From positions 1-24,908 of IMG/VR virus record IMGVR_UViG_3300020411_003515: a stretch of 24,908 bases of DNA; one strand, given 5' to 3'. Both the position numbers and the translations under genes were made by a program. Under the pieces are notes generated by a model that ran no database searches, had not been told where the DNA came from, and was given only the letters and a program-made list of their open reading frames with translations. Position 1 is the stretch's first letter; each line of letters begins with the position of its first letter. This DNA comes from a virus. Of the stretch, positions 1-22,784 are shown in pieces.

Positions 1-3000
1 TTCTGTACAGAACTTGTTATTAGCGTAGTTCCTGCTCCTGTAGATAGAGTAGTATCACTAGTATAATATATTAATTTTTTACCAGTAGTAAATGACTGTC
101 CTTGTACATTAGTCAAATATAAAGTATCAATTCCAGTTGTTATTCCAACTGTAACCTTATATCCACCACCAAAATCATCAGATCCTAAATCTGCAGTAGT
201 AATACCTAAAACATCTCCAACTTTATATCCAGTTCCAACATCACCAGGTTGATTACTAATAGTAATATCCGAAATTGATCCATCTGATCCAACAGTTACA
301 GTTGCTTTAGCACCAGATCCAGATCCAGTAATACTAAATAATCCAACATTCATATAGCTTTGACTTGCAGGATATCCTGTTCCTGAACTAATAGTTGTTA
401 TACCAGTAGCATCTAAAGATAGTGGACCACCCACATCCTCTATAATACCAGTAGGATCGTCTGGTACGTTACTTCCACTAGTGGCAGTTACTTTTACACC
501 ACTGACTAATACTGAATCCATTACAGTAGTATTGTTAATACCAACTTTTAATTTTCTTGGATAAGATGTTATTGAATTTGATTGTAATTTAAATTGTGGT
601 ATACCATTTGATGTTAATGAAGAATTATATAATGTCAAAGCTCCAGTATTTGTAAAAGATGCTTTATATAAGTTAAATTTAAGATCTTCAGTTTGAGTAG
701 AAGTCCATATAGTTCCATTTTGAGATTTAAATAAACTACCACCAAGATATTGTTTAGAAACTTGTTCCTGACTTTCTTGACCAAGACTCTTTGTTTCAAT
801 AGTGGTTTCATTCATTCTAGAAATCCAAACAGTATATGCTGTTGTTTGGGGTGCTAATAAAACAATAGCATATTCTGTTCCTGGTTCCAAATAAACAGGA
901 GAAGGAAATGTTACTTTTGTTGCTAATGAGGCATCATCTGATACTTGTATTAATCCAGATTCAGTAGGGTCTAATTGAACTTCTGCATATTCCTGAAGTA
1001 TTTGATTAGTTGGAGTCCCTAATTCCATTGTTCTTATTTGAACAGTTAATGGAATAGATTCATCTTTAGTAGCAAAGAATAAATCAAGAGATGTTAAGAA
1101 CATTCCAGTCTCATCAACAGTAAATGACTGGGCTAAAGGATCTCCATGTTCCTGTCTTGCTGGTCTTGGTTCTGGTCTAATAATTGTTGTTGTCGATGTA
1201 AACGTATCTATTTTTGCACTTGTAGTATATTCAGCATCTCCACGGGTAATTCCAGCAGAAGTATCTTCTGAACCAGGTAAAGGTTCACTGTTAGTATCAG
1301 ATGAAGTTAATCTTAAAGTTTTAAGACCATTACTAAATGTTAAAGCTGGTGGTGGAGTTGTATATGCATTTCTAATGAAGAATGACCCTTCTATATTACC
1401 AGAAACGTCCGATACTAAACGTACATCAGATATTGTAGCACTTGCATTATTTCCTAGACCTTTAAGCTCCATTCCTTTAACAATTCTACCATAATAATCA
1501 CTCATTGCTACATTATTTAAAGATGCCATATCTACATTCAATATGGTATTAGATTCTGTATAAACTGATGATATCCCAACAGTAGGTGTATATGGATTTT
1601 TATCATAAAAAGTAGTTGGGGAATTATAGGTTCCCTTTCTATGATTAGGTTGTGCTAATCTAAATGTAATTAATTTTTCTGTACCAACATATCCTTCAAC
1701 AATTTCTCCAGTTGTAAAAAATCCAGAGTTCATATTAACTTCAATCAATTTGGGAATAACATCTAGATTTTGTCTTCCATCAAGAAACGCATAATATCTT
1801 GTCAAAGGAACCATAGCAATTCCTTTAAATCCAACATTTCTAGATCTAGCAAATGGAAGATCTCTAGTTCCAGTTAGTATTCTAGACGTTGTTTCGGATA
1901 CTTCATCACCATCTAATACTATATCATCAGCTCTAATTTCTTCAGTAGTTGAATAATTATCAGAAGATGGATGGCATTGAATTCTTGATCTAAAAACAAC
2001 AACCTCATATGGGTTTACATTTTCAACACGACTAGCTTTTTTATTACCAATATCAGATTCTACTTCAGTATATTTTAAAGTTATTAAATCACCTGTTTTT
2101 TGTACATTTGGATCTAATAAAATTAGATCATCATCAAAATCAACTGTTGATTTATTATATGATTCTGATATTCCTATTTCTGGAGCATTTGTAAATCTAT
2201 CAAATGGAACAATTAATTCATTTTTTACAGTGTCAATATTAACCTTATTATCGGGATTATCAATATCCATTCTGAGAGTATCTTTAAAGTCATCTACAAA
2301 GAAACCAGACTTAAACCTATCTCCTGTAGCATCTTTAATTTGTAATGATTTTGTATCTAACTCCAATAATGATAAACTAGTTACAGTTTCTAAATTTGAA
2401 ATTCTATCATCTAATTTTCCAATATCTCTCATAGTATATCTTTTATTATCAACCAATGATATGGTGGCATCATTTGTATCATACAAATATGCTGGTAAAT
2501 CAATTGTTGCTACATGCATAGCATCATCAATAAATGAAGGTTCTTTTGGATTAACTGAAGAAACTCCTTTTATTAATGAGAATTTTCCAGTAAAATCTTC
2601 TCCAGTATTAAGAACTAATTTATCTATTCTTGGAAGATAGAAATTATATCCCAATCTAGATTCACCTTCAGGTCTAACAACAATATCACTAGTTTGTCCA
2701 GAACCTTGGAATGATCTACTAGTGTATGCAAATGGTGATTTATTTGATGATGTAAATTTAGATACTCTAGGTCTAAAATCAAGAGTATCAGATGCTCTTC
2801 CTTTCTTTAAAACAGGAATATCATTTGCAAATCTTTCTTTATTATAAGAATTTACAGTAAATACTTTTCCTGTATCGCTGGATGAAACAATATAATTATC
2901 AAAGATTATTAATAATTTTTTATCTGGACTTGAAAAATTGGGTTTTCTAACTATTCTAGAATAATCGTAGAATTGTTCTTTTTGACCTTTATCTAAAGTA

Positions 3001-5834
3001 TAATATTCAGTTATATCTAAATGATTACCGTGAGTTACAGCCTGTAATATTGTGGAAATATTTGATTCATCAAAAGTAACTAATTCACCAATAATGAATT
3101 TATCTGGAGTTAAATAAACAATAGTAACATCTGTATTATTAGATTCTCTATCAACTATTTGAGCAATTGCCCCACTTTCAGATCCTCTTATAAGTTCTCC
3201 AACTACTGAATTTGTAGATAATGATAATCCTGAAACAAATGTAAGAGTATCTAATGTTGGATTATCAGTATTTTTAGATTCTAATACTGCAAGTACTTTA
3301 ACAACATCTGGAACATTTAATGATATTTCAGTATCTTCAACTCTTAAACCATAGTAAATACTTTCAGTTAATCCTGTAGTAGATGTTGATACACCAGAAC
3401 TTGTCTTAGTTACAAATAATTTATTACTTCTAGAATATTCTTTAATTTTTTCTTTAAATCCTTGAATTTCTATTGTAGTATTAAAGAATGCTGCAGTATT
3501 TTGAGTTAGATTCTTAAATTGAACTTGAGTTCCACCTGAAATTATGCTAACTTTATCACTATTCAAAGGTTCAGTTGATCCTGCTGGATCAGTATATGAA
3601 ACTGAATATTTTTTATCATCATAACCACTAAAGAATGCACTTGATATACCAGATGGTATATTTAAAATTGCCCCATTTGAAGATGGTGTTTGAGAAATTT
3701 GCTTACTAATCGTTAATGTGGAATTTGTTAAAATAGCATCAGAAATATTTGATTCTGGTAATTTTATATAAAGACCAGCATTTTCATTATCAACAAACTG
3801 TGGTTTTGCTACTTTTATATTAACAGCAGTTGTTATTCCACTAGACTGTTGATACACTGCACCATTACAAACACCAGGAACTGATGGAACATTTTTAATA
3901 GATAATGTTCTTAAATCATTGGATACATTAGTAACCTCATTAAATGTAATATCATAACCTTGTCCAACACTATTAGCAATTTGATATGCTATAATAGAAC
4001 CTTTTTTTACACCTGAGAATGCATTACCTGGAGAAGTTATGCTACCAGTTAATCCATTAGTAGATGTAACTATACCAACAGCATCAGAACCAATATTAGG
4101 TATCAATGATGGGACTAAAACAGTATCAGCAGCAAAATCTATAGAAGTTGGAAGTGTTGCAGCATCTTGATACACGGATTTTACATCATTGATACCATAC
4201 GCAACTATACTGTTTATTACTCTTGATAAGATCTCAGATTCATTTATTAATATTTTTTCACCACTAATAAATGTTCCTGATGTTTGTGATATTGTAATAG
4301 TTGATCCTGAAGCATTAGCTACAACATAACCCGTAGCACCACTACTTATACCCCTAATATAAGAACTAGCAGGACATTGAGAACTACTTAATTCTGAATT
4401 TAATGTTAATTTTGTATATGTTTGAACATCAAATAGATATAAATTCCATTCACTAGCACCATCTGAATATGGAGTATTTCTTAAATTAAAAGAATATACT
4501 CTAGCTTTACCAATAGTTTCACCTCCACTTGGTAATTGTGTTACTGGAGTAGAACCATCTCTTCTTATATTAACTAAATCTACCTGATTATCATCATCAT
4601 CAAAACCAATATATGGAGTTCCCCATACATTATTAACTCTAAGTATATTTCCCATGTCATAATCAACAAGGGCTGATTCAACCTCTTCTTTATCTCTAGG
4701 TTTTGGCACATCAATAACAGTAGTTCCTACACTGTTTATTCTATACCCCTTAACATATGCTTTTCCTGGTTCTATTTCTATACAAGCTAAATCATCAGAT
4801 GGTGTTGCTCCTTCATCTGTGACTTGATTAGGACCAAAAATACCTTGATTTGAAAGACCATTATCTAAAGAATCTGATACCTTTACATTAAAATTATCTA
4901 TGGAATAATTTCCAGACTCTTCATAAGTTCTTGCAGCAAAATATTTATTAATTTCAGAATAAACTGAAAAATCTTGTAATTTTTTTAATTCACCTTCTCT
5001 TAACTTAATTATTTCAACAAAATTAGTATCATTTGTATCAGTAAGAGATTTTTTACTTAATTTAGTACTAATCTTTAATCTATCTGCTCCAGGAGCAGCA
5101 AAATTAGAGAATCCCCTAGCATTATCATATAATGAATTATCATCATTTGATGTTACAAAAGATTCTAAAATATTTAATCCAACTCTATATGATGGATCAT
5201 TGCTATATGGATCTAAAATTAAAGTATCTGCAGATACATCAACAAAAGTTCCTCTAATATAGTAAACACCAGCATTTATTTTTACCGCACTTCCAATAGA
5301 ACATGCATTTGATCCTACTAAATTAGCTACACTCTCACCAATTTCTATAGTAGTATTTCCATATGTAATAGATTCTTGTGCTAATATAAGTTCACTATCT
5401 TCTAAACTCTTTGTTTGATTATTATTATCAGATGTTAAATATTTTACAAATAAAGTTAAATCAGTAATACCATCAATTGCTGAAGGAACCTTAAAATCAT
5501 TTACTAAAAATTCTATTCCAGTATTTTGTCCTTTTAATTTTTTTCCTTTAAGACTAGACGCATATGTTGTTACTGGAATACCTAAATGCTCAGAATCTAT
5601 TTTAATAGAAAAATAACTATTATCATAATAAACCCCACCAGGGATTACCATAGATCCTTCTTTGAAAATATGTCCACCAAAAGATTCTACTTGATTTTGT
5701 AATATTGACTGGAGAGTTGATAATTCTCTTGCTTGAACAGGTTTTCCTGGTTTAAATAATACCCTATAAAAATTTTTATCTTTATCAAAGTCATCATAAT
5801 ATGGACTTATATTTAAATTTGATTTTATTGACAT
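1..5834 (-). CDS. DUF4815-type virion structural protein, 3' end beyond the window
   Basis: I translated the minus strand from ATG at 5834 and found the frame open to the left edge (about 1,944 codons, no stop in the stretches checked), so the C-terminus is missing. The N-terminus reads YYDDFDKDKNFYRVLFKPG, then PVQARELSTLQSILQNQ and a GGHIFKEGSMVIPGG segment, which is the pattern I associate with the DUF4815 family found next to gp8 in T4-like cyanophages. Near residues 1563-1725 is a second recognisable block, starting HGDPLAQSFTVDETGMFLTS and including TVQIR and EYAIVLLAP; it resembles beta-sandwich modules common in these tail proteins. Residues about 1810-1902 hold G-x-G-Y repeats like those in the two preceding genes. 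The start lies 3 bases after the gp8 stop, so it is probably co-transcribed and translationally coupled with gp8. The likely role is a baseplate-peripheral or fibre-associated virion component; the exact position in the particle is inferred. Confidence 0.85.
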   Translation of the reverse strand, partial: MSIKSNLNISPYYDDFDKDKNFYRVLFKPGKPVQARELSTLQSILQNQVESFGGHIFKEGSMVIPGGVYYDNSYFSIKIDSEHLGIPVTTYASSLKGKKLKGQNTGIEFLVNDFKVPSAIDGITDLTLFVKYLTSDNNNQTKSLEDSELILAQESITYGNTTIEIGESVANLVGSNACSIGSAVKINAGVYYIRGTFVDVSADTLILDPYSNDPSYRVGLNILESFVTSNDDNSLYDNARGFSNFAAPGADRLKISTKLSKKSLTDTNDTNFVEIIKLREGELKKLQDFSVYSEINKYFAARTYEESGNYSIDNFNVKVSDSLDNGLSNQGIFGPNQVTDEGATPSDDLACIEIEPGKAYVKGYRINSVGTTVIDVPKPRDKEEVESALVDYDMGNILRVNNVWGTPYIGFDDDDNQVDLVNIRRDGSTPVTQLPSGGETIGKARVYSFNLRNTPYSDGASEWNLYLFDVQTYTKLTLNSELSSSQCPASSYIRGISSGATGYVVANASGSTITISQTSGTFISGEKILINESEILSRVINSIVAYGINDVKSVYQDAATLPTSIDFAADTVLVPSLIPNIGSDAVGIVTSTNGLTGSITSPGNAFSGVKKGSIIAYQIANSVGQGYDITFNEVTNVSNDLRTLSIKNVPSVPGVCNGAVYQQSSGITTAVNIKVAKPQFVDNENAGLYIKLPESNISDAILTNSTLTISKQISQTPSSNGAILNIPSGISSAFFSGYDDKKYSVSYTDPAGSTEPLNSDKVSIISGGTQVQFKNLTQNTAAFFNTTIEIQGFKEKIKEYSRSNKLFVTKTSSGVSTSTTGLTESIYYGLRVEDTEISLNVPDVVKVLAVLESKNTDNPTLDTLTFVSGLSLSTNSVVGELIRGSESGAIAQIVDRESNNTDVTIVYLTPDKFIIGELVTFDESNISTILQAVTHGNHLDITEYYTLDKGQKEQFYDYSRIVRKPNFSSPDKKLLIIFDNYIVSSSDTGKVFTVNSYNKERFANDIPVLKKGRASDTLDFRPRVSKFTSSNKSPFAYTSRSFQGSGQTSDIVVRPEGESRLGYNFYLPRIDKLVLNTGEDFTGKFSLIKGVSSVNPKEPSFIDDAMHVATIDLPAYLYDTNDATISLVDNKRYTMRDIGKLDDRISNLETVTSLSLLELDTKSLQIKDATGDRFKSGFFVDDFKDTLRMDIDNPDNKVNIDTVKNELIVPFDRFTNAPEIGISESYNKSTVDFDDDLILLDPNVQKTGDLITLKYTEVESDIGNKKASRVENVNPYEVVVFRSRIQCHPSSDNYSTTEEIRADDIVLDGDEVSETTSRILTGTRDLPFARSRNVGFKGIAMVPLTRYYAFLDGRQNLDVIPKLIEVNMNSGFFTTGEIVEGYVGTEKLITFRLAQPNHRKGTYNSPTTFYDKNPYTPTVGISSVYTESNTILNVDMASLNNVAMSDYYGRIVKGMELKGLGNNASATISDVRLVSDVSGNIEGSFFIRNAYTTPPPALTFSNGLKTLRLTSSDTNSEPLPGSEDTSAGITRGDAEYTTSAKIDTFTSTTTIIRPEPRPARQEHGDPLAQSFTVDETGMFLTSLDLFFATKDESIPLTVQIRTMELGTPTNQILQEYAEVQLDPTESGLIQVSDDASLATKVTFPSPVYLEPGTEYAIVLLAPQTTAYTVWISRMNETTIETKSLGQESQEQVSKQYLGGSLFKSQNGTIWTSTQTEDLKFNLYKASFTNTGALTLYNSSLTSNGIPQFKLQSNSITSYPRKLKVGINNTTVMDSVLVSGVKVTATSGSNVPDDPTGIIEDVGGPLSLDATGITTISSGTGYPASQSYMNVGLFSITGSGSGAKATVTVGSDGSISDITISNQPGDVGTGYKVGDVLGITTADLGSDDFGGGYKVTVGITTGIDTLYLTNVQGQSFTTGKKLIYYTSDTTLSTGAGTTLITSSVQ

Positions 5835-5837
5835 TTT

Positions 5838-7478
5838 TTAAAATTCCAGGATAACTTTAACATCTTCTTTTTGTCTTTCATCACGAGTAATTAATGGTCT
5901 ATTATCTAGGTAAATAATATCACCCGACTGATTATTTATCTCAGAAGGAGCTATTCCTTTTGTGAATTCAATTCCTAATTCAACTACTTTACTTCCAGTA
6001 GGATTAGTTGTAATTCCTGAAAAAGATGTGTTTATACCTAAAGTATATGATGGTGCTCCTTGCTTAACTATATCTGCTGTAGCAGATAATTGGAATGAAT
6101 TAATTCTACCATCAAGACCAGATGTACTAGTAATTCCACTATAATCAGTTTGATCTCCAGTTAATTGATTAAAATATAAAGACCTATCTTGATAATACTT
6201 TAAAACTCCTATTTTTGGATTATCAGAAACTAAATCAAAAGATGTAACATATGCTTTTGCTTGTCCAATAACTACACCACTATTATTTTTAGTATCTTGA
6301 ACAATAATATCACCAACATTAATACTTGTTACTGCATCTTCAGGAAAACTATTTAAATATAAAGCTCCTGTAGATGAATATTGGTTTTTATTATAAATTT
6401 GAGTAGATCCTATCGACAAAGGATTTTTAACAATTCCAATTTGAGAGAATTTTGTATCTGGTGGAAAATCTTTTGTTGATGTATCAAATCTGGCATATAC
6501 TAAAACTCTATCAGCACCCAATTCTTTGTAAGGATCAAATCCATGCCCTTTACTTGGAGGTATTATAGGAATTAATTGTGCTCTATTACTCTCACTGACA
6601 TTTTGATCTATAGTATCCAAATCAACCATAGCATAAGTATACCCTTTACCCCCAACAGATACCTTTACATCTGATATTTCTGTTTGTTGATTTACATCAA
6701 CAATTACTTTACCGCCAGTTCCATCACCAACCAATTTAAATTCCTGTCCAGTTCCGCCAGAATAACCCTTTCCAGAATTTTGTATGAATACCTTTTTAAT
6801 CTGATTATTGTTAACATCAGAATCACCATTTTCTCTAACTGCAACGACTTGAGAATCAGTATTTGATGACCAAGAATTTGGGATAGGTATAAATTCAGTA
6901 GCATCAAATTTTATTACATCACTTGGAGAAACTGAAAATAAATATTTCCAAACATAACCATCATTAGTGTCTCCTGATGGTTTAAATGGTTCTAAACCAG
7001 TGAGTGTTGGTTCGTTTTGTGAAGAATTTCCTGTAGAATTTATCCCTGTTGAACCATTATCAATACAAATATAAACATTATAATCTTTGTTCATTACATA
7101 ATAAGATGCCTCATATAACCTAGATCTATCAGTTATAGGTGTTTTATTACTACTACTATAATCATGACGATACATTTCATAGGTTGTACCCTTTTCCCAT
7201 ATTTTTTTCTTAATAACTCTTCTTATATTATCAGTAGTAATTTTTTTACCATAAATCATGGTATCTTTAACATGATTAAGATAATTAAAATTATCTGTAG
7301 GATTTGGTGTATCACCATTCCAATCAGGAACTGAAGTTGATCTACCAAATCTAGTATTACCAATACCTGGATTTGATAATCCAACAAAAATATAATAAGA
7401 ATTATTTGGGTCAGTTACATCACCCAAAAAATTACCAGCGTTATTAATTCTAAACTGATCTGTTACAATTGCTGCCAT
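5838..7478 (-). CDS. gp8: Baseplate wedge protein gp8
   Basis: This 546-residue protein is the homologue of T4 gp8, a structural subunit of the baseplate wedge. Conserved landmarks in the expected order are IVTDQFR at residues 4-10, DGYVWKYLFSVSP at 173-185 (T4: GDGYVWEYLFEIPP), FSQIGIVKNPL at 344-354 (T4: FRQISIITNPL), and the C-terminal IIYLDNRPLI...KVILEF at 521-546 (T4: MIYMENRPPI...NILFTF). GHGFDPYKELGA at 311-322 is a motif I recall from marine T4-like gp8 proteins. T4 gp8 has 334 residues; the extra length is mainly at about 210-300, which carries two G-K-G-Y units, and at about 355-515. The gene has its own late promoter 18 bases upstream, and its stop is 3 bases before the next gene. 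The ribosome-binding site is A-rich and weak (AAAGAAAAAG). Confidence 0.93.
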   Translation of the reverse strand: MAAIVTDQFRINNAGNFLGDVTDPNNSYYIFVGLSNPGIGNTRFGRSTSVPDWNGDTPNPTDNFNYLNHVKDTMIYGKKITTDNIRRVIKKKIWEKGTTYEMYRHDYSSSNKTPITDRSRLYEASYYVMNKDYNVYICIDNGSTGINSTGNSSQNEPTLTGLEPFKPSGDTNDGYVWKYLFSVSPSDVIKFDATEFIPIPNSWSSNTDSQVVAVRENGDSDVNNNQIKKVFIQNSGKGYSGGTGQEFKLVGDGTGGKVIVDVNQQTEISDVKVSVGGKGYTYAMVDLDTIDQNVSESNRAQLIPIIPPSKGHGFDPYKELGADRVLVYARFDTSTKDFPPDTKFSQIGIVKNPLSIGSTQIYNKNQYSSTGALYLNSFPEDAVTSINVGDIIVQDTKNNSGVVIGQAKAYVTSFDLVSDNPKIGVLKYYQDRSLYFNQLTGDQTDYSGITSTSGLDGRINSFQLSATADIVKQGAPSYTLGINTSFSGITTNPTGSKVVELGIEFTKGIAPSEINNQSGDIIYLDNRPLITRDERQKEDVKVILEF

Positions 7479-7509: not shown

Positions 7510-10500
7510 TTACTGTGGTTTATTTATTCCACCAGTCTTTCTAATACCAAAGTTTCTTCTTTGTATTGATGGATAAGTTGTCAATCCTGAATTAACAGTT
7601 TTATTTGACACAGAAATTTCTATAGGATTAGAACTTCTAGTTACTCCAGATATCTTACCCCAAGAAAATCTACCAGATCCTTTTCCTGTTGTTCCTATAC
7701 CAACAACAGTAGAATTAGTTTGAATACCAGCAACAAATTCTGCAGTGCTGACTGTTTTAACAACACCACTAATAGTGTAAATATTATCCAAGAATGTTGT
7801 TCCAATTCCAACTATAGATCCAGAAGAATTTACAGCAGTAACTCCAGTTCCAATTGATGTATTAGAAATATAGATAGGTAATCCATTAACAAGAGTAGAT
7901 GAATCTCCAAATTCCCAATTTAAATAGAACTTAATTGAAGTATCTCCAATTGCTGTTATTGCTGTAACTATTCCAGAGAATCCTGAAACATTTGCTTTTG
8001 TTACATCACTTATAGTTTCTGTTAAATCTTCTGGGAAAGGTGCTAATACTGTAGGTGCTACAGTATATCCAAATCCAGAATTTGTAACATTTACATTTGT
8101 TATAGAACCATTAACAATATTTGCTATTCCTGTTGCAAAATATGTACCTGCTATTCCAGGAGTATTTCTAGCAATAGATAATGTACTAAAGTCTTGAGAT
8201 GTAAGACCATATCCAGTTATACTTCTAGGTTGGGATATTGAAACAGAAGTTGTTGATCCAACATATCCAGTACCACCATCATTAACTGTTATCGACTGTA
8301 CTTTTGATCCTGAAAGTACTGCTGTCAAAGATGCTGCAGATTTATTTGTTGATTGATCAGAAATAAGGAAATTAATCTTACTAGCACCTGTCATATCATA
8401 AGTTGTAATTCCAACAGAATCAACATAAATGTCTGTGCTAGTTGTTGTAATTCCAGATATTAATTTTAAATCTGGGAATACTAAAGGTTCAATAGATGGT
8501 CTTGACTTTGATACTGGTTCCCCATCAATTATTAGATCTGATTTTTGTTTAATCCAATTTAATGGTTTAAAGTTATCATCTATACCAACACCAACATATA
8601 GTTCAGTTTCAATAGTATCTGAAGTTGTTATACCAAGTACAGTTCTGTTATCTGTTTGATTAATTGTAGATGGCATACCATCAAGTTTTAAGATTCTTAT
8701 ATCATCACCAGCTTTAATAGTTTCTTCTATATCAGTATAAACAATATCAACCCCATCTTTTCCTCTATAGAAAAATACAGCGACATTATCATTTTTATCA
8801 GGAGGTTCTGACAACATAAAACTGGTTCCACCATCATATTCATAAGAAATACCTGGTTCTTGAATAACACCATTTATAAAGATAAGTAATAAATCCTGAG
8901 GAATTATTCCTGCTCCTGGTTTAGACTTAAATGATAAAAGTTCATTATTAAGACTCATAGGGAATCTTCTTCTAACACCATCTTGCAAGTTTGCTATATC
9001 ATCCAAATAATCAAGTTCTCCAAAATTCCAAGCAGAAAATCTATCAGTAAATATTTCATTAACTGTAAATTCAAATGGAGTTATTAATGAAGAAATTTGC
9101 TTATCAGTGACAATTCCTATTGGTTTAAATACATCTCCTTTTTTGAAGGCAAATCCGTCTCTAGTTATCTTAAATCCTTTTACTTCAAACAATGTAGATC
9201 CAATTCCAGTGGTAGAACTAGAACCAACTTCTAGAGATACTCTTAATGCCTTTCCAGTTTCTGTGGTTGTTCCAATTCCTAGTCTAGATACTCCAATAAC
9301 ATCAAGATTTTCATAGGATGGAGATGGTGGTAAAATTTGCGGATTTATATAACCAGATCCACCAGAAACAACATTAAATGTTAATGTTCCACCTACACCA
9401 ACAGTTGCAGTTATATTTGCTCCAGATCCTAAACCACCACCACTTCCAACTGAGACTTTAAAATAATCATTGGTAGCTTCAATAATAGATAACGCTGTAT
9501 TATAAGCAGGGTCTGTTGTGCGAGGATATAGATGAAGAGTCTTAAAGTCATCCTTAGAACAAGTGTATACTAATGACGTGGTAGCAATGCTGATTGTATT
9601 TGCAGATCGATTTACACCATTATTAATAGCACTTACAAATGTATGAATACCTGTATTTGTTGATGGAACAATATCAAGAACATTTATTTCAAACTGATTA
9701 CCACCACTTACATTAGATATAGGTAACCATTTACCACTTAAAGGATCTGTTGACCGTGGATATGTATGATTGGTAGAATGAGAATCTTTATCGCATGTAA
9801 ATGTAAGAGAATTATTATCAAAGTTAACTAATTGACCATTTGCTAAAGCTGGTGATGGTGTTGAATTAAGTTTTACAGTCATAATACCAACATTTGGATC
9901 ATACACGGTTCCTGTGGTTGCTGTATATGAATCTGATGTAATAAGATTATGATTAGACTTTGTTAATGATACAATACCAGTTAATGTATCATAAGGTGCA
10001 GCAGTAGGTGTAAATGTAGTATTTCCACCTATTCCATTAGCATTAACGGTAATAGAATTATTATCTGAACTTACAAATGTATGATCATAAGCAGAATCTG
10101 TAACTCCTATTGATATTGGAGTACTAGAGAAATATCCAGATCCATTAAAATCAGTAGTTCCCAATCCGACAGATGTAATAGTCCCTGAAGCATTAGTAAC
10201 AACAGTTGCAGAGGCACCAACTAAAGGTGCTATACCAAGACCACCACTAGAACCTATAGATATTATCTGGCCAGATCTTGGTAATTGATTTTGTGTAGAA
10301 TCAATTTCACTTATAATGATTGATCCATTAGCAGAAGTAATACCAGTAAATACAAAACTAGTAACCCCTACATTTTCATCTAAATCATAATTGTTTAATG
10401 GATTGTTGAGTGTAGTTGGTCTCTGGAATATTCCATTTATTGTCATTAAAGTACTTCCAGTATTAAGTCCAACTGTATTAACACCACTAACAGTAGTAGT

Positions 10501-13500: not shown

Positions 13501-16500
13501 TCCACTTTGAACACTGTTAACAATAGTTGATCCAATAGATATAGTACTAATTCCAACACCATTTGTATTGTTTATGGTAAACAATTCAGCAGCATCTATA
13601 CCCTTAGGTGGTTGTATAATATTAACACTTGTTATTGATTGAGTAGCAGGACTAATATTTGCTTGTATAAAACCATTATCAATAACTTTTCTTGTATTAA
13701 TATCAACAACAACTATCTGAGGAGCAATATTTTGATATCCAGATCCACCATCAATAATACTTACTTCACTTATCATATCAGAATCTCTTAGTGAAATTAC
13801 TGGAGATATATTTGCTATGGGTAATAGAGTTTTATCTGAAGGATATTCAAATCCAATATTCTGAATCTCCGATTCATAAATTTTATTTGCACTATTGGAT
13901 GTTGGTATTATTTTAGCATTTGTTCCAGTAGTTGTAGCAACACTAACAAATTTTGGCATTTGTTTATATCCAAAACCACCAAAATTAATTTTTAATTCAT
14001 TTATAGGACCTTGTACTGATGTAGAAGATGTTGAATAATCCAAATCCTTACAGTCTTTAGTCTTATATCTTAAAGACTCTGGTTTTTGCTCTAATAATAC
14101 ATTAAAAGTCGTATTTCCTACACCAAATACTGAATAATTTCCATTATATTCACTATCAACAAAATTAATTCTAGATCCATTAAATACATCAACATCACTA
14201 GTGCTTATAAATCCAGATTTTTCAATATTATAGAATAAATTTAAAGGAAGATTATCAGAATATCTTAAAGTAACCGATGCTGTAGAAGATACTCCTACAG
14301 TACCAATACCAGAAACACTGAAAACATTAGTATTTCCTACAGATACAAAGTTTTTAACAAACTTATTATCATAAAATATTTTTAAATTATATCCAGACAA
14401 AGATGGGTCTGAAACATCAAAAACTAAATTATTATTTCTAACAACATTAATTGGAGGATTTATTAGAGATAATTCTTGTTCTGATCCACCTATAGAAACC
14501 AAACTTACAATTGATGGTGATAGATTTATTGCATCTATTCTAGTCTCTGATAATTGTATTTGATTATCATTTATTTTACGAACAAAATATCCACCAGTTG
14601 ATAATCCACTTATAATTTCATCAGTAGAATCATAAAATATCTTATCACCAGTCTCATAACCATGAGAATTTACAGTTATTCTATTTGTAGAAGTATTAAC
14701 ACCTGCTGATGTAAATCCAACAGTATTAATTAATAGTTTATTTTTTTGCGAATTATATTTAACTCTAACAGATGTAGATGTACCAATACCGACTGATTGA
14801 TTTGGATTAATTGATAAGTTAATAATATTTCCATCAATTAAATTATGATTTGTAGATACGGATACCTTTGTAGAAATTGTTTCTATTAGACCAGTAACTT
14901 GATCAAATGTTGATTCAAAAGCATACTCATAATTATCACTACTACTTTGCCAAACTCCTGGTATGAAAAATAATCCACTAGTAGAAGTAGTTAATCCAAT
15001 AGTAGTTACAATACCAATATAATTATCTGATTTGTTAATAACAAAAAGTTCAGAATTATTTGTTAATGTAATACCAGCACCAATGGTACCATCTGGAGAT
15101 GCACCTATTTTACCTGCAGTAGATGGAATTATTAATTTAACCTTTTGTCCTGTTGTAAATTTATGATTTGGTAAATAAATGCTCTGAGAAGGAACTGAAA
15201 CAATACTAGAAGTATCACCAACAGATACTCTTACAGAAGAAGTTATACCAGATAAAGTAGCTACACCAACTGATTGTCTAGCATTAAAATAAACAATATC
15301 ATTTAATTTAGATTCAAAGAAACTAGATTGTACTGGTAAAGTTAAAAAACTAGGAATTAAGTTAACTGAAGTAGAAACAGTATGAGATGTTGCTGTTACA
15401 CCCCTTTTAACTCTTAAAACATTTCTATCATCAAATTTATTTAAGACTAAAAGTTTTTCTGTACCTATACCAATACTACTACCAACAGATATTAAAGATG
15501 TTCTACCAACAAAAATATCAGTTATAATTCCAGCAGAAGAATTTGATGATACTTCTTTATATAATATAGTTGATTCTGAAGAAACGCCTATTTTGTGAGA
15601 TCCTGAAAGATTTTGTATATTACTACTTAATCCAGATACTATTACATCTGCTCCATTTGTTAATGTATGAGATGTTGATATAAAAGCAGTAATTTTACTA
15701 GAATCTTTCCATACAAATTGAACATCTACGTCTTGATTAAATGAAGTTTCAACGTCAGTGATTGGTTTACCTTTCAATGAAGAAATAACAGCATTTAACC
15801 CACTTCCTTCAGTATTTGAATCATCAAATCTTAAAGATTCCCCTATCTTATAGTTATCACCAGAATTAAGGATTTGTAAATTATCAACAGAACCTGGAGT
15901 TACTGAATTAATTTTTGTTATTTGGTTAACGATTTCATCAGATTCTATAATATAATCATTACCCATATTTTCTCTTGATAAATTATATGGGAAAGTATTT
16001 CTTATTAAATCTGAATTATTAAAATCAAAATTTTGAGTAAATTCTTCATCTTTATCTAAAGATATTGGATTTGATCTGTAAGTATCTCCAATAAAATATG
16101 GGAATTTTGGTTCAAGTGTATTTTCATCAATACTGACAAAATATGCATAAACTCCTTCAGGATAATCTGGTGTTTTACAATATCTTCCATTATGGATATC
16201 CAAATCTCCAGAATTATTAAATTTATAATCAGAACTAAAAAATCCTAAATTAAAATTAGATGGTCTATCTTTTATATTAGAAGAATCTAATACATAACCT
16301 GAATTTAATATTTTTGTTTCAGAAGTATCAAATGGTTTACTAAATCCACGTGGTCCATAAATTGGATTGCCATCATATGCCCATCCTATAATAGGAGAAT
16401 GGTTACTAGATAATAAAGAATTATATTTTAAGAAATTAAATTCTTCTCTATTAGTAGAATATCCAACAATAGAATATCTTAATCCATCAGAAATTGGTTC

Positions 16501-19500
16501 CAATATATCATCAGAATAACGAATATCATAAGGTAAATTGGTTTGAATATTATTTAAAGATAATTTTCTAACATTAGGTTCTAAAACTTCTCCAGAACCT
16601 GCAGGAATAACCTTTATAGATGTATTAGAATCTGTATAATTAGATCCAGATCTTAATATTTTTACCTCTTTTATTTTTAAATAAGATAATGAAGACGGAT
16701 CTCTATCTATTATTGGTCTTACTTTAGCCCCTACTCCATCACCAACTACTTCTAAAGATGGTGTTGAATAATATTCTGATCCACCATTTCCAATATTAAT
16801 TGATATTATTTTACCATTAGATATAATTGGTTTTATATCAGGAGAAATAAGTTTAGTAGATCTACTTCTTCCATTTTTTACAACTATGTCTGGTTTAATT
16901 TCATAGTTAATAATACTAGTATTTCCATATCCAGTTCCCTTTTCATATAATAAAATTTCTTCAATAGTACCACGAACAATTGGTGTTAAAACTATTTTAT
17001 CTGATGTTGAAATAGGATAAATTATATCAGGAGTAATTTCAATTTTTGGATATTTAAATATTTGATCACCAATACCACTTGATTGAAATTTAACATAATT
17101 ATTTCTAATATAATTTGATGTTATTATCCCACTAGGACCAGCATCTGCTAATCTAAATTTATTATCATCTATTTTTAAAACTTTATATTGATTTGTTGTA
17201 GATAATCCAGAAATAATAGATGGTTTTAAAGATCCAAAATTAAATGAAGTTGTAAATCCAGTTGATCTTAAGGATGGTAAAGATATGAATACAGTTCCTA
17301 TACCTATTGATGTTACTGTAGTACCTGTAGAAACCACTCCAGACGTATCACAAGTGATTAATTGACCAACAGATATACCAGAAGTACTAATTCCAGTAAT
17401 CGTGCTTGCAGAAGCAACTAGAGTACCTGTGGTTGCTATCCCTAAAGAAAATGTAGATACTCCAATAACACTTTGATATTCAATATTTTCTCCATTTGAG
17501 AATTTATGATTAGTAAATTCTATAGTTGAAAAATCTGTAGATATACCACTTTGTTTTACAATAAGTTCTCTATTACTAAATGGAATATCTGAATTAATAA
17601 TTTCAACAGAATCTAAAGTATTAGTTGCATCTTTAAGAGTAAATTTATGAATTCCTGATTTAGCAACAGCAGTAAATCCAATAGTATTAATACCACTCAT
17701 ATAATCTTTTTCACTAGGATAAAGTCTAATACTGCTTATACCAAGAACTTCTGGCCAATATGGACTACCATCAACTAATGTTTTAGTTCCAATATTACTA
17801 CCTTTAAAAGTTCCAATACCTAGTTCAGGATTATTATTTCTATTATAAATCAATACTTGGCCACTTTTAAGATTATGATTTTTTTGGAAAACAATAGTTT
17901 CATTAACCGAATCAATATCACCTCTACTACTTGTAAGTTTTCCATTAAATTCTAAAACTCTATTTCTTTTCTTCAAAATAGGTCTTAAATTTGTTCCAGT
18001 AGAATTTCCACCAGTAATTTTTAAAGAAATTACATCTTCAATATCAAAATTTTGAGGGTCAATGTCTATTTTTTGAAGATATCCAGATATAACTGCTTTT
18101 GCTAAAGCAGTTGTACCTAAACCAGCAGATATATCAACAAAAGGTGGATTTATAACATCAAAATCAGTTCCTACACCTATGGTAGATATACTATCTAAAG
18201 GACCATAAAAAATACTATCAGTTGATTTGCCATTTTCTATTTCAACACCATTAATTAGCACTCCAACTGTTCCAGGAACTGTTTTTGTGTTAGTTTTAGA
18301 ATTAACAGTAGGAGTTAATGGTAATTTTTTAAATAATTTTCTAGGTGATATTTTCTTATCATAATGCTTTAATAATGTAAATGTATGCTTTTTACTATCA
18401 GATGGGATACCAAATTTCAAATTTGTGCCTGATTGAATAAATGATGGACCAGAATATAATCTAATTTTATTATTACTAATGTTTTTAATAAAATATATTC
18501 CCTCAGTTAATCCAATAAGTGGATTTGTTTCTGGTTTATAATATACAGCATCTCCTGTAATAAAAGGTGCATTAGTTTCAAATGATATTGTTTGAAATAA
18601 CTGTGTTCCACTATCATAATCTTGAATTGTTGGAGATGTTCCAGTGGATTTTGCTTCATCAATTGATATTGTTAATATATTTTTATCTATTTCATAGGAT
18701 GGTAAAGAATTAGTAGCAACATAAAGGTTATCTTTTGAATCTACATAAGTATTTTGTATATCTGAATTTATCTTATTACCATACTTAAGTAAATTTAAAG
18801 TAGAATCTTTCATAGAAGCAGTTTTTAAAACTCTTCTTATACTATAATTTTGATTTGTATTATCATTTACAAAAGGAACTGAGAGAACAATTTTAGTTTT
18901 ATTATCTAATATCTGATTTACTGTAGTAGTATGTTTTACTTTAGGTATAGAAAATGGATTTACACTTCTAGTAACGATTTCTATAGTATCTCCCACACTT
19001 AAAGATGCTTTATTGATACTAGTTTTTAAAACAACTTCAGAAATTTCTCCCAACCCAAGAGATTGTTCTAAAATTTCATACGAAGAAGCAGTATTATAAA
19101 TCCAAGAATTTGCATTAATTTCTTTTTTAGTTTCTTTATTATCTTTAATAATTTCACCAATACTCTTAATATCAATAGTTTCTCCTTCTATTGATAAAAT
19201 ATTTGATGGATTTGGATTAAATTTAGATAAAACACCTGTAATTCTTAATTCTACCCTTTTATTTAAATCTCCATTTTCATAACCAAAGATAACTTCATTA
19301 GATCTTAAATCAGTTCCTGATGTTATAACACCAACAACATTTGTACAATCTAAAAACTGATTAATTGTCTTATTTTGATAACTAATATTTGTATTAATTC
19401 CTGATATAATCAAACTACCAGTAGTTCCAAATCCTACAGTAGAATCAACAGATATAATTGAAGAATTTTCTGGTACATCACCTATAACTTTTGTTTTACC

Positions 19501-20464: not shown

Positions 20465-22384
20465 TTATCCCCTAATTAATTCTCCGTTTGTGTAACTTGA
20501 AGTAACCTTATAACCAACTCCAGATATTTGTTCACCTGAAGAAATGGTATCCTTAACCATATTTATTGAACTATTTTCAACGCTAAATTGAAGATATAAA
20601 TCCTGAAGACCTATAATATCATTTGATTCAGGGAAAGCCTGTATTTCTATAACATTATCATCTTTTTCAGTAGAAATTATATTAATTGTAGTTAAATTAA
20701 TCTCACCTTTTACATAATCAACAGTTCCTGCATCTTTAACTATAATAACTTTTTCTCCACCTATCAATTCTTTTTTCACAATCGATAAAACACCTGTTAA
20801 TTTATCCTCATTTGGAGTATCTGTTAGATATACAGTATCACTCACTCCAGAAATCTTAAATCCTGTACTCTTGATATTTAATCCTTCTGGTTTAACGTTA
20901 AATTTATTACCAAAACAAAGTTCATATTGTGCAAATTGATTTACAAGAGCTCTTAAGTTTCTTCTAATTCTTACTCTAGTAATATTTGAAGTTATAGCTC
21001 TATCAATATTATCAATAACACTTAAAACCTTACTATATTTAAATCTTCCACCAAATTTGTTAATATCAACTGATTTTGAATATCTCGTAAGATTATTGGT
21101 AACTAATGTTTTTAATCCAGAAATTTCTTTAACTTCTGAATTATTGTAATATATGAAAGATTCTAATTCTATGTAAAGTATCTTAAGGTCAATAATTTTT
21201 TGATTTATACCTGTTAATGAATAGTTTTTTAAATCAGAAAGTATTTGAGTTTTATCAAAATCTGATATAAAATCACCATTTTTTGGTTTTATTGTTAGAA
21301 AAACTGTTCCAAATTGAGGGGGATCTATCTCTTCCCCACCAACAACAGATACACTCTCAGTATTTGGGTATATTTGTTGAATAATTGCCTCATAATCCCT
21401 TGCTGTAACCGCCCTATACTGCGATGAATATAGTCTAGGGGCAAAATACTTAATTGAATTTAATGATTCAATATCGCCGCCATTTTGTGCCTTAGAAATG
21501 GTAGTTACCATAGGAGTAGATGAAGGACTTATAGTAATATTTTCAGAATTCTCTAAAGATCCTGCAAATACAAACGAAGAAGGACCATTTCCTTCTATTC
21601 CATCAGTAACAATGTAAGTAGCAGTAATATTATCCCCATTATCTAATTTTTTACCAAAAATACCATCACCAAATAGAAGTTCATATTTTTCATCCTGAAC
21701 TTCTTGAATTAAATATGTTTCTGATGAAGTTGTTATTCCTACAATATTATCAATTTTTGTATATAATTTCTTTTTCGCATTTACATCATTTGCTTTTTTT
21801 ACATAAGCATTTAAAGTAGATGTGTCAATAAATGAATTATCAAGTATAAATCTTTGATCCAATGAACCATCAACAGTAAAGTCTTTTGTTAGGTATGTTC
21901 CTTGAAATACATTGATAGAATCAAAGGTAGCAATACTTCCATTATTGTTTCCATCTGCATCTTTTGTTATTGACGCAGAAGTTGTAATATCCTCTGGTAT
22001 TGAGAAGACATAAGTTTGGTCATTCTGAGACCCAACACACACTAGACCTGCCTTAAGAGTCATTGTAGGTGTTATAGAAGTCGTATTAACAGTGAATTTT
22101 ACTGATGCTCTTGCTGCTGTTATAGATCTAGGAACATAACCGATATTTCTTGCAAGAGAAACTACATTTTCTCTAACTGTTGCTGAATCTAAGAAAGATT
22201 CATTCACAACCATATTGGAATTTACAGCTGTAATATAGGTATTATATGCTAAAGTATCAATTAAAACTGAAAAATTAGACCCCTCAAAGTCAAAATCAGA
22301 AAAATCTGAGTTTGAACGAAGGTAACTTTTAATTGATGTTTTAATCTGATCAAAATCTAGATCAGTAAATTTAGTAAAAGGCAT
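20465..22384 (-). CDS. gp6: Baseplate wedge protein gp6
   Basis: This 639-residue protein is the homologue of T4 gp6 (about 660 residues), which forms the inner ring of the baseplate by dimerising between wedges. The N-terminus (FTKFTDLDFDQIKTSIKSYL, then FDFEGSNFSVLIDTLAYNT) and the following region with VRENVVSLARNIGYVPRS are typical of the family: a helical start that mentions a polytope of six or more residues repeated in related wedge proteins. The middle segment, from about residue 315 (PRLYSSQYRAVTARDYEAII) to about 375 (FGTVFLTIKPKNG), is the baseplate-J/gp6 signature. The start codon follows the gp25 stop after a single base (TAA-T-ATG), and the stop is followed in the same way by the next gene, so gp25, gp6 and the giant gene appear translationally coupled. 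Length and motifs are intact, with no sign of decay. Confidence 0.94.
   Translation of the reverse strand: MPFTKFTDLDFDQIKTSIKSYLRSNSDFSDFDFEGSNFSVLIDTLAYNTYITAVNSNMVVNESFLDSATVRENVVSLARNIGYVPRSITAARASVKFTVNTTSITPTMTLKAGLVCVGSQNDQTYVFSIPEDITTSASITKDADGNNNGSIATFDSINVFQGTYLTKDFTVDGSLDQRFILDNSFIDTSTLNAYVKKANDVNAKKKLYTKIDNIVGITTSSETYLIQEVQDEKYELLFGDGIFGKKLDNGDNITATYIVTDGIEGNGPSSFVFAGSLENSENITISPSSTPMVTTISKAQNGGDIESLNSIKYFAPRLYSSQYRAVTARDYEAIIQQIYPNTESVSVVGGEEIDPPQFGTVFLTIKPKNGDFISDFDKTQILSDLKNYSLTGINQKIIDLKILYIELESFIYYNNSEVKEISGLKTLVTNNLTRYSKSVDINKFGGRFKYSKVLSVIDNIDRAITSNITRVRIRRNLRALVNQFAQYELCFGNKFNVKPEGLNIKSTGFKISGVSDTVYLTDTPNEDKLTGVLSIVKKELIGGEKVIIVKDAGTVDYVKGEINLTTINIISTEKDDNVIEIQAFPESNDIIGLQDLYLQFSVENSSINMVKDTISSGEQISGVGYKVTSSYTNGELIRG
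20469..20473 (-). promoter_or_regulatory. Shine-Dalgarno of the giant structural gene
   Basis: The minus strand reads AGGGG, 5 bases before the ATG at 20463, inside the last codons of gp6. It is the clearest ribosome-binding site among the late genes here and fixes the start of the 4,317-codon gene, even though only one base separates that start from the gp6 stop. Confidence 0.6.
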
Positions 22385-22385
22385 A

Positions 22386-22784
22386 TTATCTAGTGGCTTC
22401 TAATATGAATTGAAATGCTTGAGATGGAAACTGTTGACCAACAATGTCATAAAACACGTTAACCTCAAATTCATTGTTATCTGGTTTTGGATTTACTTCT
22501 ACACTTAAATTATCTATTCTTGGTTCGTAATTCAACAAAGTAGTTTCAATTTGATTCTGAATTACAGATGCAGTACCAAAGTCTACAAAGTCAAAAAGAG
22601 AAGATCTAATATCAGTTCCTAAGTTAGAATTGAAAAATCTCTCTCTAGGAATAGTTTGTACAAGATTTCTTACTGATTTTTTGATCGCATTCTCATTTTT
22701 TATGACAGTAAGGTCTTTTGTTACTGGATGAGGAGTAAAAGATAGACTAATATCCTTAAATGATCTAGATATCCTAGTTTTCAT
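22386..22784 (-). CDS. gp25: Baseplate wedge protein gp25 (GPW/gp25 family)
   Basis: This 132-residue protein matches T4 gp25 in size (132 residues) and pattern. gp25 is the conserved, sheath-proximal wedge subunit that, with gp6 and gp53, forms the core wedge and helps start sheath assembly; the family is shared with type VI secretion TssE. The diagnostic segment is LNYEPRI at residues 84-90, containing the Glu-Pro-Arg motif (87-89). It is preceded by the usual IPRERFFNSNLGTDIRSSLF stretch (45-64) and followed by beta strands ending in FQFILEATR. It is the first gene of the late unit: a late promoter box ends 27 bases before its ATG and a terminator for the preceding unit lies just beyond. 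The ribosome-binding site is weak, as is common in AT-rich phages. Confidence 0.94.
   Translation of the reverse strand: MKTRISRSFKDISLSFTPHPVTKDLTVIKNENAIKKSVRNLVQTIPRERFFNSNLGTDIRSSLFDFVDFGTASVIQNQIETTLLNYEPRIDNLSVEVNPKPDNNEFEVNVFYDIVGQQFPSQAFQFILEATR

Follow-up and report, generated by a model that had tools for sequence, protein, structure and literature searches.

A split YHYH-family domain in the giant gp7 baseplate protein of a marine T4-like phage has probably lost its predicted metal-site segment and may serve as a scaffold

The window analyzed here is the whole 24,908-nt stretch of viral DNA deposited as IMG/VR record IMGVR_UViG_3300020411_003515. It carries the gene order gp25-gp6-gp7-gp8 of baseplate wedge proteins, with a 4317-aa open reading frame placed between gp6 and gp8 (Table 1). 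The match of this frame to the baseplate wedge family phrog_2885 covers residues 1082–4303, that is, most of its length. Phages P-SSM2 and S-RIM8 have the identical order gp25-gp6-gp7, the protein being annotated there as gp7 or baseplate wedge initiator, and among sequenced gp6 proteins that of Synechococcus phage S-SKS1 is closest (63%). Gene order and nearest gp6 thus identify the window as a fragment of a marine T4-like (Kyanoviridae-type) phage. A search of NCBIfam with gp7 gave no match, and self-BLAST of the protein did not find internal repeats. After gp8 follows an ORF of 1944 aa (3–5834, minus strand) with matches to DUF4815 (PF16075, 190 bits) and phrog_358, which runs off the window end.

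Table 1. Positions of genes, domain pieces and motifs in the window.
Feature	Position	Strand	Basis
gp25, baseplate wedge	22386..22784	(-)	Pfam GPW_gp25
gp6, baseplate wedge	20465..22384	(-)	phrog_219, Pfam Gp6-like
gp7, giant baseplate wedge protein, 4317 aa	7510..20463	(-)	phrog_2885 baseplate wedge subunit, 3384 bits
gp8, baseplate wedge	5838..7478	(-)	phrog_438, Pfam Phage-Gp8
N-terminal YHYH piece, gp7 residues 703–745 (PGTVGVLINGVEI)	18229..18357	(-)	hhalign to canonical 42–84, E 4e-6
Insert, 585 residues (746–1330)	16474..18228	(-)	replaces 58-residue metal-site segment; hhalign background
Last three beta-repeats of insert, residues about 1162–1281	16621..16980	(-)	repeat HMM
C-terminal YHYH piece, residues 1331–1463	16075..16473	(-)	hhalign to canonical 143–279, E 8e-42; Pfam 87–186
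Core motif GWAYDGNPIYGP	16351..16386	(-)	conservation table; the D, G, P and Y do not vary among bacteria, gp7 and free-standing phage proteins
Second core motif DLDIHNGR, residue 1420	16183..16206	(-)	conservation table; R of NGR also R in canonical proteins
C-terminal YxY motif YAYF, residue 1439	16138..16149	(-)	aligned to YAYF, YHY, YYY of canonical proteins

Whole gp7 matched the Pfam profile PF14240 (YHYH) at 97.4 bits (E 1.4e-27; gathering cut-off 25 bits), the best stretch pairing residues 1350–1449 with profile positions 87–186, and window positions 16117–16416 reached 88 bits. An HMM of the core, derived from bacterial and free-standing phage YHYH proteins, scored 89.7 bits at residues 1355–1456 versus at best 1.2 bits on reversed gp7 sequences, which places the match far above chance. 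The sequence HSPIIGWAYDGNPIYGPRGF starts at residue 1355, and KFPYFIG is found at 1453. The YHYH core is the best-conserved 109-residue stretch of the region (identity 0.74 vs 0.59 in the insert), and D132, G133, P135, Y137, L194, D195, N198, G199, R200, Y212 and Y214 of the conservation table are 98–100% conserved in gp7 and bacteria. The first-pass annotation of this locus had suggested a YHYH-family domain within a giant baseplate protein, to be checked by a profile search against that family; the significant PF14240 match and the assignment to phrog_2885 bear this out. Its span of 16085–16400 equals residues of about 1355–1460 and holds for the core, but the domain is larger, with a second piece located ~600 residues upstream.

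This piece was detected in a sliding profile–profile scan (hhalign), in which an alignment of 44 gp7 sequences (residues 692–1508) was compared, in windows of 70 residues, with an alignment of 42 canonical YHYH sequences. The scan gave only two matches, which are colinear and correspond to the two pieces listed in Table 1; windows wholly within the insert stayed at background (E about 0.3–0.7), without YHYH similarity. The N-terminal piece occupies the same site in nearly all gp7 relatives. Against positions 3–37 of the Pfam profile (window 18223–18327) it scored 19–21 bits, which alone is under the cut-off. Both the N-terminal strand and the C-terminal core of PF14240 are hence present in gp7, not as a contiguous domain but separated by the 585-residue insert. 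Taken at the sequence level, the YHYH domain of gp7 has very probably been split, with loss of the metal-site segment. A repeat HMM built from kyanovirus gp7 inserts, which contain ~41-aa beta-repeats, identified a repeat at residues 1213–1247 (iE 4.5e-8) and weak ones at 1162–1183 and 1263–1281 (iE about 0.1). By eye, the insert start also appears to hold two repeats, e.g. KSTDSIFYGPLDSISTIGVGTDFDVINPP, and some 300 residues may be nested between the starting and ending repeats. Two further repeats of the insert type lie near the C-terminus of gp7 (residues 4049–4139, window about 8047–8319; iE 2e-4 and 4e-7).

The eponymous YHYH corresponds to profile positions 74–77, upstream of GWAYDG (fragments cut to start at YHYH align from position 74), and in bacterial and free-standing phage members it sits between the N-terminal strand (G..G..LNGV) and GWAxDG. 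Only profile positions 3–37 and 87–186 are matched in gp7, and positions 38–86 are missing; canonical positions 85–142, including D116, H121 and YHYH 128–131 of the predicted Zn site, have no counterpart. Of 73 bacterial matches, 71 had YHYH upstream of the core, versus 0 of 84 gp7 matches, and the motif is missing from about 50 distinct gp7 relatives. In none of the gp7 tested did a metal-segment HMM exceed -1.4 bits, apart from L248, whose intact second copy gave 38.7 bits. Residues 703–1508 of gp7 contain only five His, with no close pair and no HxH. The proposal in the first-pass annotation that YHYH has changed into YAYF is ruled out by the profile position of YHYH and by the free-standing phage YHYH proteins, in which an intact YHYH occurs together with GTYAYF at the C-terminal end. 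YAYF is thus a regular C-terminal element, represented by YHY or YYY in bacteria, and separate from the YHYH segment that gp7 lacks.

The Asp and three His are conserved to 98, 100, 100 and 100% among 70 bacterial YHYH sequences, and to 100, 45, 51 and 41% in 31 rows of free-standing-type phage loci, which include some second YHYH copies from neighbouring proteins. As the gap of the gp7 rows at the Asp/His columns of this table stems from the fragment used, absence of the segment in gp7 was deduced from the upstream-motif counts, the metal-segment HMM and the profile–profile scan. Neither the name-giving motif of PF14240 nor the three His plus one Asp of the Zn hydrolase predicted in PMC7824862 was found in gp7. 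Since the YHYH segment is absent, the gp7 copy is to be regarded as a degenerate homologue, not a typical PF14240 member, and judged by its sequence it cannot hold the proposed Zn site.

The AF2 models of gp7 residues 692–1508 (pLDDT 77, pTM 0.70; insert residues 1003–1078 unreliable) and of canonical YHYH (pLDDT 83.5, pTM 0.85) are similar in strand order and spacing, with strands at positions 41–45/50–52 and 667–671/676–678/681–685/688–694 of the former (add 691 for protein residues) and at 71–75/80–82 and 170–174/179–181/184–188/191–198 of the latter. This similarity, the sequence itself and a pLDDT of about 79–88 for the N-terminal piece suggest that the piece packs against the core. A PDB sequence search with whole gp7 and the canonical YHYH alignment found no solved relative. 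Foldseek of the canonical model against the PDB gave no match at E <= 1e-3 and VIA-align of this model nothing at Z >= 2, which does not mean that the fold is new. In VIA-align of the gp7 model, only insert residues 833–945 matched, the hits being phage tail-tube proteins and the E1 FCCH domain (Z about 6–9, 77 residues); this match was set aside because it represents a common small beta arrangement. Among the BFVD matches of the gp7 model are phage Bellamy gp7 as well as YHYH proteins from cyanophages and from giant viruses, the latter being A0A5B8IDC5 (Mimiviridae sp. ChoanoV1) and A0A5J6VJS1 (Megaviridae environmental sample).

The relatives can be placed in a graded series, to be understood as an arrangement of living sequences rather than a chronology. 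Within a 7185-aa frame, L248 provides a contiguous YHYH copy whose motif is intact, GEDACGGHPEQNGLYHYH. The second copy of L247 is unsplit but decayed (DSYGGK..GNYYHT), its first copy being split. S-RIM8 and ACG-2014d gp7 carry an insert with six ~41-aa repeats in tandem, followed by a remnant GGEYAH (kyanovirus GGEYAHLS). The window gp7 keeps no part of the motif, and its insert ends in the same kind of repeats as kyanovirus gp7. The distance from the strand PGxxGMLINGVEI to the core amounts to 513–564 residues (510–560) in nearly all relatives, 327 in S-RIM8, 236 in phage MA01 and about 600–630 in the window gp7. In G023, the single 7185-aa frame holds a split, decayed YHYH (L159) as well as the intact contiguous one (L248). 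In the YHYH domain of L246 gp7 and of other baseplate proteins (L084:14536–18000, phrog_708; L251), additional insertions lie elsewhere, at about profile 133–143.

In a tree of 100 cores, which is unrooted and based on only 115 columns, gp7 sequences form one clade (99/89) and bacterial sequences another (100/100). Counted by name, with the YHYH figure taking in other proteins too, YHYH occurs in 372 'Synechococcus' and 61 'Cyanophage' records versus 373 and 61 for gp6; YHYH is near-universal in sequenced cyanomyophages. The single gp7 clade apart from bacteria, together with this distribution, argues for an old resident. The first-pass annotation had suggested a surface-binding module acquired from outside the phage, and bacterial YHYH proteins do occur in many phyla; the same two observations nonetheless speak against a recent gain, and a recently acquired cellular module in this phage is hardly credible. 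For the cultured pelagiphage HTVC008M (NC_020484), neither YHYH nor the first 1750 residues of gp7 gave a match, so that it offers no basis for ordering the insertion events; YHYH domains are nonetheless reported by PMC7029224 for the phage groups compared there. Sphingomonad genomes (L183, L187, L188, L214) have two YHYH genes near each other.

Since a long arm with repeats has taken the place of the part bearing the name motif and the predicted metal site, the gp7 YHYH domain is probably a scaffold, i.e., a non-catalytic structural platform, rather than an enzyme (probability about 0.65). Residues 703–745 and 1331–1463 would fold together into one domain, which the insert would exit at the former active-site face as a beta-repeat arm bearing a further nested domain. 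The YHYH core would then be a rigid platform that positions the arm in the periphery of the baseplate wedge. Speaking against the scaffold is that the N-terminal piece is short and weak alone (21 bits), and also that the residues conserved in the core might just as well make up a ligand site. Along the latter line, the domain might be a surface- or carbohydrate-binding module whose conserved polar core site binds host glycans, loss of the metal segment being immaterial; the D, DG.P.Y, DLD..NGR and G.YxY residues indeed hardly vary, also in copies that have lost the metal site. We consider this unlikely, given that gp7 is a wedge protein, that neither a solved structure in the PDB sequence search nor a binding report in the literature searched was found, and that the core is highly conserved across relatives, unlike receptor-binding parts, which are usually variable.

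An active, tail-associated Zn hydrolase for opening peptidoglycan, the role put forward for YHYH generally in PMC7824862, would be in line with the conserved His triad and Asp of that prediction and with the retention of all four residues in bacterial copies. For gp7 it is very improbable, as the whole segment is missing in the window gp7 and the gp7 first copies tested, and the window gp7 has neither an HxH nor a cluster of His that might act as a substitute. It might also be argued that the match of the N-terminal piece is coincidental, reflecting a generic NGV strand, and that the gp7 domain consists of the C-terminal half only, the remainder being unrelated to YHYH. The piece is short, and the score of a 17-column HMM did not exceed 6.1 bits in the first copies of gp7; yet this HMM had its best match at that site in most full-length gp7 (reversed controls only 1.4 bits), the site is shared by nearly all relatives, the hhalign match extends colinearly over 43 columns, and both halves are linked in unsplit relatives. 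Coincidence thus appears rather improbable. Beyond the scaffold reading, and more tentatively, marine T4-like phages may have disarmed a catalytic-type domain by swapping exactly its active-site segment for a beta-repeat arm, so as to yield a mechanical or receptor-contacting baseplate platform, with a disarmed split and an armed intact copy in one giant protein of G023.

The jumbo-phage survey PMC7824862 predicted a Zn site for YHYH from three His and Asp, and a tail-associated hydrolase; PMC7029224 counts YHYH as one of the domains associated with carbohydrate binding in structural proteins of cyano- and pelagimyophages. Both proposals concern YHYH in general and treat phage copies alike, and the passages on YHYH in the two papers mention no split or motif loss in gp7; in the literature searched, neither an established biochemical function for YHYH nor wet-lab data showing metal binding by the canonical motif were found. 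The distinction between armed copies (bacterial, many free-standing phage proteins) and disarmed ones (gp7) shows experimenters which to assay, the disarmed gp7 copies being natural negative controls. Nearly all sequenced cyanophage baseplates would be reusing an enzyme-like fold as a structural component, and calling the window gp7 a YHYH enzyme in annotation would be wrong.

T4 gp7 likewise lies between gp6 and gp8, but T4 gave no YHYH match. Bacterial PF14240 proteins (e.g. Pseudoalteromonas L164, Deinococcus WP_239051980) have the core GWAxDGxP.Y, DLD..NGR, TPE.P.G.YxY and the N-terminal G..G..LNGV strand in common with gp7. They are, however, contiguous, with 67–86 aa from NGV to core in most and an intact D..H...YHYH, whereas in the window gp7 this distance is about 600 aa and the segment is lacking. 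Free-standing cyanophage YHYH proteins (phrog_2576, ACG-2014d AIX19095) share the core and the GTYAYF C-terminal motif with gp7, but are contiguous and keep each His in about 40–50%, whereas gp7 is split; those of the ACG-2014d type are fused to an esterase-like domain. Free-standing cyanophage YHYH proteins beside gp7 and gp9 (L089:4001–5764, plus strand; L084:11551–13314) have an alpha/beta-hydrolase-like C-terminal half, with a weak match to short-chain PHA depolymerase (26 bits, cut-off 150). The gp7 proteins of Kyanoviridae (P-SSM2, S-RIM8, S-SKS1) resemble the window gp7 in that the gene order is the same where checked, the YHYH domain is split and the motif is lost, but insert length and content differ, the S-RIM8 type being about 6400–6900 aa with the GGEYAH remnant.
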